DNA of 64,000 nucleotides from assembly GCF_025152405.1 (NCBI RefSeq), contig NZ_CP102292.1, positions 930,001 through 994,000 on the forward strand, written 5' to 3'. This document shows positions 6,786 through 56,370 of this stretch, piece by piece. The notes beneath the pieces were generated by a model that was not told where the DNA came from, did not search any database, and was given only the letters and a program-made list of their open reading frames with translations. How positions within the stretch are numbered: position 1 is the first letter of the stretch; every line of letters starts with the position of its first letter. The stretch comes from [Ruminococcus] lactaris ATCC 29176 (GTDB lineage: Bacteria; Bacillota; Clostridia; Lachnospirales; Lachnospiraceae). The translations under genes and the position numbers were made by a program.

Positions 6786-6814
6786 ATAATAACACTCCCG
6801 CAGATTTCATGCAA
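6786..6814 (-). promoter_or_regulatory. Probable malic-enzyme promoter with tandem repeat upstream
   Basis: Minus-strand TTGCAT (6809-6814), 17-bp spacer, TATTAT (6786-6791), pointing at the malic enzyme gene. Directly upstream of the -35, at 6811-6845, a 17-18 bp unit GCAA(A)TATCYGCATTTTT occurs twice in tandem, in a position suited to an activator. A second copy of promoter plus repeats lies at 8956-9015 because of the IS-linked duplication. Confidence 0.5.
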
Positions 6815-6899
6815 TATCCGCATTTTTGCAAATATCTGCATTTTTGAAAAAAAGCTTTCTTTTTATAGGAAAGTAGTGTATAATACGAACCATATTTAT

Positions 6900-6971
6900 G
6901 ATGCCAGGGGGGGAGTGCGTAGCACGGAGTAATCCGTAGGCATCAAAGTCGGGGGCTTTTGACCCCGACAT
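6900..6971 (+). repeat. Dispersed hairpin element, copy A (created by the IS target duplication)
   Basis: Identical to copy B (9070-9141) because it lies inside the 187-bp duplicated segment, so it is not an independent insertion. It holds the outer stem GATGCC/GGCATC, the hairpin GTGC-GTA-GCAC and the terminal stem GTCGGGG/CCCCGAC. Its left flank has the direct repeat CATATTTAT (6891-6899). The matching right repeat was cut off by the IS, which begins one base past the element. Confidence 0.85.
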
Positions 6972-7008
6972 CCGGGAGTTTGACAGTTGAATATTAGAAA
7001 AATACCTT

Positions 7009-8931: not shown

Positions 8932-9048
8932 ATCTTTCCAACTGTCAAAGATGGGATAATAACACTCCCGCAGATTTCATGCAATATCCGCATTTTTGCA
9001 AATATCTGCATTTTTGAAAAAAAGCTTTCTTTTTATAGGAAAGTAGTG

Positions 9049-9054
9049 TATAAT
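9049..9054 (+). promoter_or_regulatory. Probable -10 of the rho promoter
   Basis: A perfect TATAAT about 250 bp upstream of rho. No good -35 lies 16-18 bp upstream (TTTCTT at best), so the promoter would need an activator or be weak. Transcription would begin close to the left end of hairpin element B, making it the first part of the rho leader. Confidence 0.4.
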
Positions 9055-9069
9055 ACGAACCATATTTAT

Positions 9070-9141
9070 GATGCCAGGGGGGGAGTGCGTAGCACGGAGT
9101 AATCCGTAGGCATCAAAGTCGGGGGCTTTTGACCCCGACAT
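9070..9141 (+). repeat. Dispersed hairpin element, copy B (72 bp, internally deleted form)
   Basis: Flanked by a 9-bp direct repeat CATATTTAT at 9061-9069 and 9142-9150, like a target-site duplication. Internal pairing: outer stem GATGCC (9070-9075) with GGCATC (9109-9114), hairpin GTGC-GTA-GCAC (9085-9095), and terminal stem GTCGGGG (9118-9124) with CCCCGAC (9133-9139). Compared with the 192-bp copy C it lacks about 120 bases between the left end and the GTGC hairpin. It lies in the leader of rho. Confidence 0.75.
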
Positions 9142-9306
9142 CATATTTATTTTAATGCAGATATCGATACAAGTCATTTCTGACGCGAATCCCGGGGTAT
9201 TATTTAAGGACAGAGTGAATATGGACAGTTAGACAGTTTCTGACAGGATCATTTATTAATTTTTTGAAGAATACGTCAGATTTTATGAAAAGAAAGGAAA
9301 AGATGT

Positions 9307-34846: not shown

Positions 34847-34887
34847 GTTAATCTCATTTCCTGTATTACTTTTAATATTAAATTTGA

Positions 34888-35079
34888 TGTCGGGGTCAAA
34901 AGCCCCCGACTATGATACCTACGGATTGTTACGCACTATGTGCTCCCACAATCCTACCCAACATTCGCATATCGTAGTGCTTACGCCCCGCTTTTATGCT
35001 CATATTGGGGCGGGTCACAAGGTCATTTTACCACTAGTGTGCGAGTACACGTGGTGTCAGACCTTGTGACCCTGGTATC
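34888..35079 (-). repeat. Dispersed hairpin element, copy C (192 bp, longest form)
   Basis: Flanked by a perfect 10-bp direct repeat TTAAATTTGA at 34878-34887 and 35080-35089. Read on the minus strand: outer stem GATACC/GGTATC, a large hairpin with a perfect 13-bp stem GGGTCACAAGGTC/GACCTTGTGACCC (plus-strand positions 35012-35024 and 35060-35072), a GCCCC/GGGGC hairpin, GGATTGT/ACAATCC enclosing GCAC-ATA-GTGC, and the terminal GTCGGGG/CCCCGAC. Relative to copy B, the outer stem changed at both partners (G-C to A-T) and the inner hairpin is GCAC/GTGC instead of GTGC/GCAC. Lies between convergent genes. Confidence 0.8.
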
Positions 35080-35128
35080 TTAAATTTGAGCTTATCTATA
35101 ATAATTAAAAGGTACAATGAATATTTGA

Positions 35129-51026: not shown

Positions 51027-51080
51027 AAGCAAGTCGGTTGCGGGAAAGAGTAATCAGAACCGCAAGAGATACAGGTATAT

Positions 51081-51153
51081 GGGGTCTTAGCTCAGCTGGG
51101 AGAGCATCTGCCTTACAAGCAGAGGGTCACAGGTTCGAGCCCTGTAGGCCCCA
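51081..51153 (+). tRNA. tRNA-Val (UAC), first copy
   Basis: 73 nt cloverleaf. Acceptor GGGGTCT pairs with AGGCCCC, discriminator A; anticodon loop CTTACAA gives UAC; T-arm GTTCGAGCC. CCA is not encoded. Confidence 0.96.
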
Positions 51154-51167
51154 TACCAATTTAATAT

Positions 51168-51241
51168 GGCGGGATAGCTCAGTTGGCTAGAGCACACGGT
51201 TCATACCCGTGGTGTCGCTGGTTCAAATCCAGTTCCCGCTA
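51168..51241 (+). tRNA. tRNA-Met (CAU), elongator type, first copy
   Basis: 74 nt cloverleaf. Acceptor GGCGGGA pairs with TCCCGCT (one G-T pair), discriminator A; anticodon stem ACGG/CCGT with loop TTCATAC. The anticodon arm matches elongator Met tRNAs rather than initiator or Ile2. CCA is not encoded. Confidence 0.93.
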
Positions 51242-51247
51242 CTATAT

Positions 51248-51320
51248 GGGGTCTTAGCTCAGCTGGGAGAGCATCTGCCTTACAAGCAGAGGGTCACAGG
51301 TTCGAGCCCTGTAGGCCCCA
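51248..51320 (+). tRNA. tRNA-Val (UAC), second copy
   Basis: Identical in sequence to the tRNA at 51081, 167 bp downstream, part of a tandem duplication. Confidence 0.96.
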
Positions 51321-51334
51321 TATCAATTTAATAT

Positions 51335-51408
51335 GGCGGGATAGCTCAGTTGGCTAGAGCACACGGTTCATACCCGTGGTGTCGCTGGTTCAAATCCAGT
51401 TCCCGCTA
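51335..51408 (+). tRNA. tRNA-Met (CAU), elongator type, second copy
   Basis: Identical to the tRNA at 51168, 167 bp downstream. The spacer before it differs from that of the first copy by one base (ATACC versus ATATC). Confidence 0.93.
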
Positions 51409-51418
51409 CTTGGTTTGA

Positions 51419-56033: not shown

Positions 56034-56047
56034 AATGTAAGTGAGTA

Positions 56048-56115
56048 GGATTGTGGGAGTGCGTAGCACGGAGCAATCCGTAGGCATCAAAGTCGGGAGC
56101 TTTTGCCCCGACATC
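56048..56115 (+). repeat. Dispersed hairpin element, copy D (68 bp, 5'-truncated form)
   Basis: Flanked by a direct repeat ATGTAAGTGAGTA at 56035-56047 and 56116-56128. Opens with GGATTG (pairing CAATCC) around GTGC-GTA-GCAC, then GTAGGCATC and the terminal hairpin GTCGGG/CCCGAC. The left part present in copies B and C, including the GATGCC/GATACC strand of the outer stem, is missing. It has one base fewer in the terminal loop than copies B and C, which breaks any shared reading frame. Confidence 0.75.
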
Positions 56116-56129
56116 ATGTAAGTGAGTAA

Positions 56130-56370
56130 GAAAAAGACCAGGAACGGGAAGAGTAGCTATGTTCAGGCTGCCAGAGAGTGGGTGTCATCGGCTGGAAGCA
56201 TCCTTAAGTTATGAAGATTGTGAAGTGCCCCCGGGAGTTGATCCTGCGAAAGAGTAAGTAGCGGGATACGTTGACACGCGTTAAGTGTATTAAGTGAAAG
56301 AAGAGGATTCTTTTATTAGAGTGGAACCGCGGAGAAGACTTCGTCTCTATTTTGAGACGGAGTCTTTGTT
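56130..56370 (+). promoter_or_regulatory. T-box riboswitch, probably tRNA-Cys responsive
   Basis: The T-box sequence AGAGTGGAACCGCGG at 56318-56332 is diagnostic and precedes a terminator hairpin. Upstream lies a stem I-like region with AGAGAGTGGGTG at about 56173. A TGC at 56226-56228 is a candidate cysteine specifier, though its exact place in the specifier loop cannot be fixed by eye. Uncharged tRNA should favour the antiterminator and switch on the operon. The downstream genes cysE and cysS support cysteine. Confidence 0.88.
56335..56369 (+). terminator. T-box regulated terminator
   Basis: AAGACTTCGTCTC (56335-56347) pairs with GAGACGGAGTCTT (56354-56366), followed by a T-rich stretch. 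Confidence 0.85.

Follow-up and report, generated by a model that had tools for sequence, protein, structure and literature searches.

Small intergenic palindromic repeats such as ERIC, BOX and RUP occur in tens of copies, and some are mobilised in trans by IS. MITEs of IS1182-family elements are also known; the ISMac2-related MITE of M. acetivorans, as tabulated in PMC3852290, is 160 bp long and present in 14 copies. IS1272, a member of the IS1182 family, is described in PMC5678879 as replacing target stem-loops and making no duplication. Rfam curators have remarked on MITEs confounding microRNA families, as noted in PMC4383904.

The Clostridiales-1 RNA (RF01699) is listed in Rfam under type Gene; sRNA. 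Its single mention in Weinberg et al. 2010 (PMC2864571) is a table entry that rates it as probably RNA and probably not cis-regulatory, and a term search of a later structured-RNA screen (PMC8632094) did not find the family named. We found no description of Clostridiales-1 RNA as a transposon in literature judged by titles and the beginnings of abstracts, with most subscription papers and supplements lying outside that search. Here we compare these systems with an RF01699 copy from R. lactaris.

Results

Position, ends and predicted fold of the window element

The window, meaning the whole stretch of DNA analysed, comprises 64,000 bp of the [Ruminococcus] lactaris ATCC 29176 genome (NZ_CP102292.1, positions 930,001 to 994,000), and feature coordinates refer to it; L and G numbers are our handles for loci and genomes. 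The original prediction, made from the letters alone, had described a 192-bp structured mobile element and recognised no named RNA family in it. On this last point it was wrong: an Rfam search matched the minus strand to RF01699 over its full length at 124.7 bits, the gathering score being 48, an outcome that the prediction had itself listed as counting against it. The Rfam model omits the 3' hairpin and 3' TIR of the window element. The features of the element are as follows.

34886..35079, minus strand: full element (194 bp), with 5' TIR GATACCAGGGTCACAAG from 35079 and 3' TIR CTTTTGACCCCGACATC to 34886
34913..35080, minus strand: full-length match to RF01699, Clostridiales-1 RNA (124.7 bits, gathering 48, model positions 1-166 of 166)
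34886..34910, minus strand: 3'-terminal hairpin GTCGGGGGC-TTTTGA-CCCCGAC plus the 3' TIR, helix 8 of the consensus, outside the Rfam model
34878..34885, no strand: target-site duplication TTAAATTT, copy 1, from family junctions and empty sites
35080..35087, no strand: target-site duplication TTAAATTT, copy 2, from family junctions and empty sites
35012..35072, minus strand: long hairpin with a perfect 13-bp stem (arms 35012-35024 and 35060-35072)

The boundaries 34886-35079 follow from the family, whose ends have the form GAT...CATC and whose host duplications measure 7 or 8 bp. A 10-bp direct repeat, TTAAATTTGA, is present as had been reported, but only 8 bp of it (TTAAATTT) are a target duplication by the family junctions. 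The final GA belongs to host DNA in the right copy, whereas in the left copy the element (GATGTCGGGGTC...) begins with it, a match of two bases by chance, and the element is therefore 194 bp long and not 192. It is short, has TIRs and lacks a transposase gene, as a MITE does. The perfect stem that had been proposed is exact in the sequence, with GGGTCACAAGGTC (35012-35024) pairing with GACCTTGTGACCC (35060-35072). The predicted RNA fold of 34878-35089 reached -87.1 kcal/mol compared to a shuffled mean of -53.7 (z -7.8), a value equalled in 0 of 200 shuffles. Folded as DNA, the whole element gave -47.4 on the Rfam strand and -41.8 on the opposite strand.

Copies in the R. lactaris genome

The genome is a single contig of 2.73 Mb. 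Counting matches at E 1e-3 or better, it holds 109 matches to RF01699, of which 84 exceed the cut-off and 75 are near full length (the first 75 in the list, with 167-169 aligned bases; the remaining 34 are partial), and none of 14 control genomes gave any match. The family has imperfect TIRs of about 17 bp (GATGYCRGGGTCAAAAG). Allowing up to two mismatches, the TIR pattern CTTTTGNCCCYRRCATC was found 121 times on the forward and 119 times on the reverse strand, compared to 6 and 4 for the same pattern written backwards.

Target duplications were counted in 73 near full-length copies, leaving out two in which the 3' end was not recognisable (L028, L075). With the junctions fixed, an exact duplication of 7 bp was present in 43 and of 8 bp in 12, a total of 55 of 73 with none counted twice. 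When the left flank of one copy was set against the right flank of another, 67 of 5248 combinations matched (58 at 7 bp and 9 at 8 bp). The duplicated sequences vary, with 38 distinct sequences among the 49 copies that have at most one mismatch in 7 bp.

A second palindromic repeat family (GCCGGATGGCTATTGACTAAGATATTCGATCG...GATAGCCATCCGGC) occurs in the same genome, and RF01699 elements have inserted into it repeatedly at TTTACTA or similar sequences. Interrupted repeats were seen in L008, L025, L048, L060 and L083 (at about 1470-1500) and in L057 and L084, and the copies without an insertion, in L066 (near 3000) and L112 (near 4010), represent paralogous empty sites.

Empty orthologous sites

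A 600-base query spanning the insertion was searched against 41 genomes of the genus, R. lactaris included. Four of the 20 loci fetched were not counted: the window locus itself (L122), two other copies of the element (L127, L128) and one locus with about 1.7 kb between the anchors (L132). The element was absent from all 16 orthologous intergenic regions read (L123-L126, L129-L131, L133-L141), in which the upstream terminator-like hairpin is joined to the cold-shock-like gene without it. The original prediction had expected empty sites to hold a single copy of the repeat. One ATTAAAT was present in L123, L125 and L140, and most of the others had a close variant (for example AATAAAT or TATAAAT). 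Mobility, the central claim of the original prediction, is borne out by the TIRs, the variable target duplications, the empty orthologous sites and the 75 near full-length copies.

Candidate transposase partner

An element of 978 bp in an uncultured Mediterraneibacter MAG (G035; L172/L189) is flanked by the duplication ATGCCAT and carries a 205-aa transposase fragment on its minus strand. Its TIRs are identical to the 3' TIR of the window element at 17/17 and 16/17 positions. The fragment scored above the cut-off for Pfam DDE_Tnp_1_6 and below that of the NCBIfam IS1182 model. Relatives of this fragment at E 1e-15 were found in 5 of 58 genomes of the genus, G035 included, and in the R. lactaris genome there were 0.

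A scan of the named genome collection yielded 24 loci, with both ends recognisable in 12. Eight of these 12 measure 1.85-1.91 kb and mostly have the TIR GATGCTGGGGTCAAAAG. An exact 7-bp duplication flanks five of the 12, namely the G035 element (L189) together with L193, L196, L199 and L202; in L190 and L198 the duplications differ at one base (ATGTCAT/ATGACAT), and in L192, L197, L204, L205 and L209 the flanking repeats do not match. The L196 element has an intact 546-aa ORF, TIRs matching at 15/17 and the duplication ATGTCAT. Its transposase passed the Pfam DDE_Tnp_1_6 cut-off (39.5 against 25.1); the best NCBIfam model, NF033551 (IS1182), was not passed at 109.7 bits, and as this is far under the cut-off of 270 we use the term IS1182-like and not IS1182. 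The identical TIR (L172/L189, transposase truncated) and the intact gene (L196, TIR 15/17) do not occur in any single element.

RF01699 did not reach its gathering score in any of the three IS loci scanned (L172, L193, L196), and therefore the interior of the MITE does not look like a deleted IS. The R. lactaris genome has two IS1182-like fragments, both N-terminal, and neither is bounded by matching ends. No autonomous partner was found there among the matches listed, which cover 100 of the 240 TIR hits (forward strand, to 2.15 Mb); 16 of the listed hits outside RF01699 matches, read in 12 stretches, looked like short ends or chance matches.

In genome G008, three of the five RNA copies read (L227-L229) end like GATGTAAGTGTCAAAAG...CTTTTGACACTCACATC, two of them (L227, L228) with exact 7-bp repeats, and an IS1182-like remnant in the same genome ends in GATGTGGGTGTCAAAAG. 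As both depart jointly from the usual form, the ends of MITE and IS have changed together and the fold has stayed. An IS1182-like IS in G068 (L183, 1-1900) was set aside as a partner, having other ends (ATGAGTTGCCCGACAAATGGGCAATT). Only some 5 bp separate it from an RF01699-type element, whose 3' end faces it.

The analysis thus showed the ends, the duplications, the empty sites and, in relatives, elements that carry a transposase and have identical or almost identical ends. We estimate a probability of roughly 0.85 that the window element is a MITE with inverted ends of about 17 bp, mobilised in trans by an IS1182-like DDE transposase and inserting into AT-rich targets with duplication of 7-8 bp.

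Shortened and derivative copies

Three shorter copies are present elsewhere in the window.

6900..6972, plus strand: copy A, an internally deleted derivative (GATGCCAGG plus the 3' part), with no matching right-hand duplication
9070..9142, plus strand: copy B, the same derivative as copy A, with the 8-bp repeat ATATTTAT (9062-9069, 9143-9150)
56048..56115, plus strand: copy D, the 3' part only, starting GGATTGTGGGAG, with the 13-bp repeat ATGTAAGTGAGTA (56035-56047, 56116-56128)

Copies A and B (6790-6972 and 8960-9142 with flank) have about 110 bp of upstream flank in common, including a TATAAT-like box. Because B has a full duplication and A does not, A looks like a later copy of B together with its flank. 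Copy D and its 13-bp repeats end two bases before a T-box leader, RF00230 (56131-56351), and together with it span 56035-56351. Elsewhere in the window (51076-51409) there is a tandem duplication, 99% identical, of a 167-bp unit that contains two tRNA genes.

Genome-wide, shorter forms with family ends comprise 77-base forms in which the 5' hairpin is left, 115-base forms, and forms consisting mainly of the 3' part. Direct repeats of at least 7 bases flank five of the six 115-base forms, two of the five 77-base forms (the end of one of these five was not recognisable) and nine of the 16 forms with mainly the 3' part (L086, L089, L090, L093, L095, L098, L099, L107 and copy B); the same rule applied to unrelated flanks gave 72 of 650. 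L092 and L096 retain the 5' hairpin and have lost the interior, with 7-bp repeats present. In L093, L095 and L098 (near position 1500) the 5' TIR is gone and an exact direct repeat of 7-13 bp lies at the truncated end. These three repeats are not explained by plain TIR-to-TIR transposition; L098, alone among them, fits slippage between two GTA triplets.

Orientation relative to replication

The GC skew of the 109 loci indicates that replication starts near 0 and ends near 1.14-1.22 Mb. Taking 1.2 Mb as the terminus, we count 60 of the 75 near full-length copies as head-on to replication; any terminus from 1.14 to 1.30 Mb gives 60 or 61. Where the neighbouring genes are divergent or convergent and set no direction, 22 of 25 copies are head-on. 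In tandem gene contexts, 35 of 48 near full-length copies are antisense to both neighbours, with genes called by a simple longest-ORF rule.

In the two deleted classes (6 copies of 115 bases and 16 consisting mainly of the 3' part) the orientation was mainly the opposite, with 18 copies co-directional and 4 head-on (Fisher p 2e-7). Of the 77-base forms, 4 were head-on and 1 co-directional; for the nine partial copies outside these classes the numbers were 6 and 3. The contrast weakens once every shortened copy is counted (34 partial copies plus A, B and L114), to 14 head-on and 23 co-directional (p 1.6e-5 against intact copies). Forms that retain the 5' hairpin tend to be head-on, whereas forms without the hairpin or the middle do not. 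Intact copies are thus found mainly where the folding strand is not the lagging-strand template, and the two deleted classes mainly in the opposite arrangement. Parts of the element may be lost by slippage between short repeats when the folding strand is the lagging-strand template, and biased insertion or selection could also contribute to the orientation bias.

Strand bias against replication, together with the structured RNA, would also suit a retroelement, a bacterial SINE of sorts, whose RNA copy is inserted by target-primed reverse transcription; L093, L095 and L098, which lack the 5' end yet have a direct repeat, could be read in the same way. However, RVT_1 (PF00078) had 0 matches in the R. 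lactaris genome, while the control search found it in 3 of 14 genomes. The duplication is of nearly fixed length (7-8 bp) and the ends are inverted repeats of each other. L092 and L096 keep the 5' hairpin, lose the interior and still have 7-bp repeats, and L098 is explicable by the GTA slippage described above. We dropped target-primed reverse transcription on the missing RVT_1, the near-fixed duplication and the TIRs, and consider it very improbable.

Hairpins and a strand bias relative to the fork would also be expected if the element moved as single-stranded DNA, like IS200/IS605 or REP/RAYT elements, with an HUH (Y1) transposase acting at the replication fork, and the genome has one Y1_Tnp gene. 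That gene, at 480,655, is separated from the nearest listed RF01699 match by about 18 kb. To our knowledge elements of this class make no target duplication, in contrast to the exact 7-8 bp duplication in 55 of 73 copies. HUH or REP mobility was dropped on these duplications despite the Y1_Tnp gene, and is the least probable of the explanations weighed. Transposition by a DDE enzyme in trans remains our reading of the duplications and ends.

Conservation of the internal fold

Alignment A1 has 46 rows (44 distinct): 37 of the 75 R. lactaris copies, picked by hand for variety, and 9 copies from relatives. Its consensus has 61 pairs, with 98.8% of cells paired, and two-sided changes occur at 13 pairs in 162 cells. 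None of 500 shuffles reached these paired or double-change values, and sliding the partner by 1-3 columns left at most 45% of cells paired and at most 5 double-change cells. The fold is thus kept by compensatory changes, as had been proposed from two copies. Both individual changes then reported are real. The outer-stem change from GATGCC/GGCATC to GATACC/GGTATC is seen in alignment columns 4/164 (GC:33 AU:10 GU:1), and the inner-hairpin change in columns 139/147 (UA:32 CG:11 other:1) and 140/146 (GC:33 AU:11). Further pair types showed no excess over shuffles in A1 (reached by 489 of 500). As the changes mostly separate three subfamilies, the cells are not independent and a few events are counted many times.

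An internal loop, 5'-GA-3'/5'-GA-3', lies between helices that change freely (ATAT/ATAT, ACAT/ATGT, CACC/GGTG, GCAC/GTGC). Under a strict rule 44 of 75 R. lactaris copies have the GA/GA loop, as do 29 of 47 copies in relatives and 14 of 18 across the wider order (two of these 14, L261 and L266, have it at another place), whereas single-base shuffles averaged 3.0, 2.0 and 0.8. Other repeated dinucleotides reached at most 1 of 75, 12 of 47 and 9 of 18 by the same rule, the last two being AT, which is self-pairing; dinucleotides without Watson-Crick self-pairing reached at most 5 of 47 and 2 of 18. Judged from these sequence comparisons, the loop is a stricter sign of fold conservation than the A1 covariation.

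Read on the Rfam strand, 11 pair positions have G-T in at least two rows and 2 have A-C, which would be G-T on the opposite strand (p 0.02); over all pair positions the numbers are 25 and 15 (p 0.15). This points weakly to the minus (Rfam) strand of the window as the selected one. Compensatory changes and the GA/GA loop together indicate that the fold of the RF01699 interior is under selection, probably on the minus strand.

RF01699 outside the genus

RF01699 was found at E 1e-3 in 33 of 148 genomes of the order, above the cut-off in 25. We read 65 copies from other genomes; two further stretches were cut by contig ends. The pattern identified a 3' TIR in 19 of the 65. Among the 46 without it, contig ends truncate three, and L234 does have the TIR, though with an extra base, as well as a 7-bp repeat, so that about 42 lack the TIR. 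Therefore, the MITE mechanism does not cover the whole RF01699 family. Tandem RF01699 copies were seen at L230, L231, L232, L236 and L246 (G057, G052, G028), most with ends unrelated to the MITE ends.

Flanks complementary over at least 3 bp were present in 12 of 43 copies without these TIRs, compared to 3.7 expected. Such flanks may reflect either a longer outer stem or insertion into a palindrome; by analogy, they might fit stem-loop replacement of the IS1272 type as described in PMC5678879. At the one such site examined, L256 (G162), for which 15 loci were compared, the element separates two genes; in seven relatives the stop of one overlaps the start of the other. It is present in G162 and L274, and shortened, element-like hairpins occupy the corresponding position in L276, L279 and L284, from the genus of G162. 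Presence in several genomes, full or shortened, marks this as an old insertion; there is extra sequence and no clean duplication.

Copies of this kind bear on the reading of RF01699 as a chromosomal small-RNA gene that became multicopy by ordinary duplication or recombination, its mobility being incidental. The fold and its non-Watson-Crick loop are kept across several families of the order, including in copies without transposon ends, and the Rfam type (Gene; sRNA) and the rating in the table of Weinberg et al. 2010 (PMC2864571) agree with such a gene. Against it, variable duplications in 55 of 73 copies, TIRs and empty orthologous sites are not products of recombination, and the antisense placement of 35 of 48 copies in tandem contexts also speaks against it. 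We regard a host gene of this kind as improbable. At least part of the RF01699 family is mobile DNA.

Discussion

Under the MITE reading, an IS1182-like transposase would have moved the window element in trans, as the common ends suggest, and the source element may since have been lost from the R. lactaris genome, leaving the amplified family behind. The interior would then be the RF01699 structured domain and not a piece of the scanned IS loci. The fold may act for the element itself while its strand is single, either as a transcript or as DNA at the fork, and we favour the view that the fold of the RF01699 strand serves the element's own spread.

A broader reading, which we consider unlikely though plausible enough to set out, is that the folded RF01699 domain is portable, is under selection in single-stranded form and has been combined with more than one set of transposon ends, its fold being a mobility determinant. 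It would account for IS1182-like ends in Mediterraneibacter, for G008 ends that track the local IS, and for dispersed or tandem copies without such ends elsewhere. The fold of the exposed strand might then present a structured substrate to the stem-loop-seeking transposases of this group. If this were true, an established family of non-coding RNAs would amount to an organ of a transposon.

RF01699 is already catalogued; within the literature searched here, its nature as an amplified transposon interior is new. In at least one genus the family is the interior of an amplified transposon, and this accounts for its copy number there. The case is a caution that covariation by itself does not make a host RNA gene. 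It also offers transposition as an assay for testing the RF01699 fold, and the orientation of intact and shortened copies as a natural record of a strongly folding strand at the fork. Ends and folded interior evolve separately, which raises the question of what a MITE needs besides ends.

By description, ERIC, BOX and RUP resemble the window element in being small, palindromic, intergenic and present in tens of copies. The likeness to Clostridiales-1 RNA is a full-length match to the minus strand of the element; Rfam and the table of the 2010 paper (PMC2864571) treat it as an RNA of unknown function, whereas in R. lactaris it makes up the interior of a transposon that has TIRs, target duplications and empty sites. 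The ISMac2-related MITE (PMC3852290) is likewise short, has ends in common with an IS1182-like transposon and is flanked by target direct repeats. It differs in its 26-bp IRs and 4-bp DR, as the columns of the published table read, compared to about 17 bp and 7-8 bp here, and the window element in addition carries a conserved RNA fold that was not found in the scanned IS loci. IS1272, as described in PMC5678879, has a related transposase family, and structured palindromic DNA matters in its transposition. It makes no duplication, however, whereas the window element duplicates 7-8 bp of an AT-rich target.
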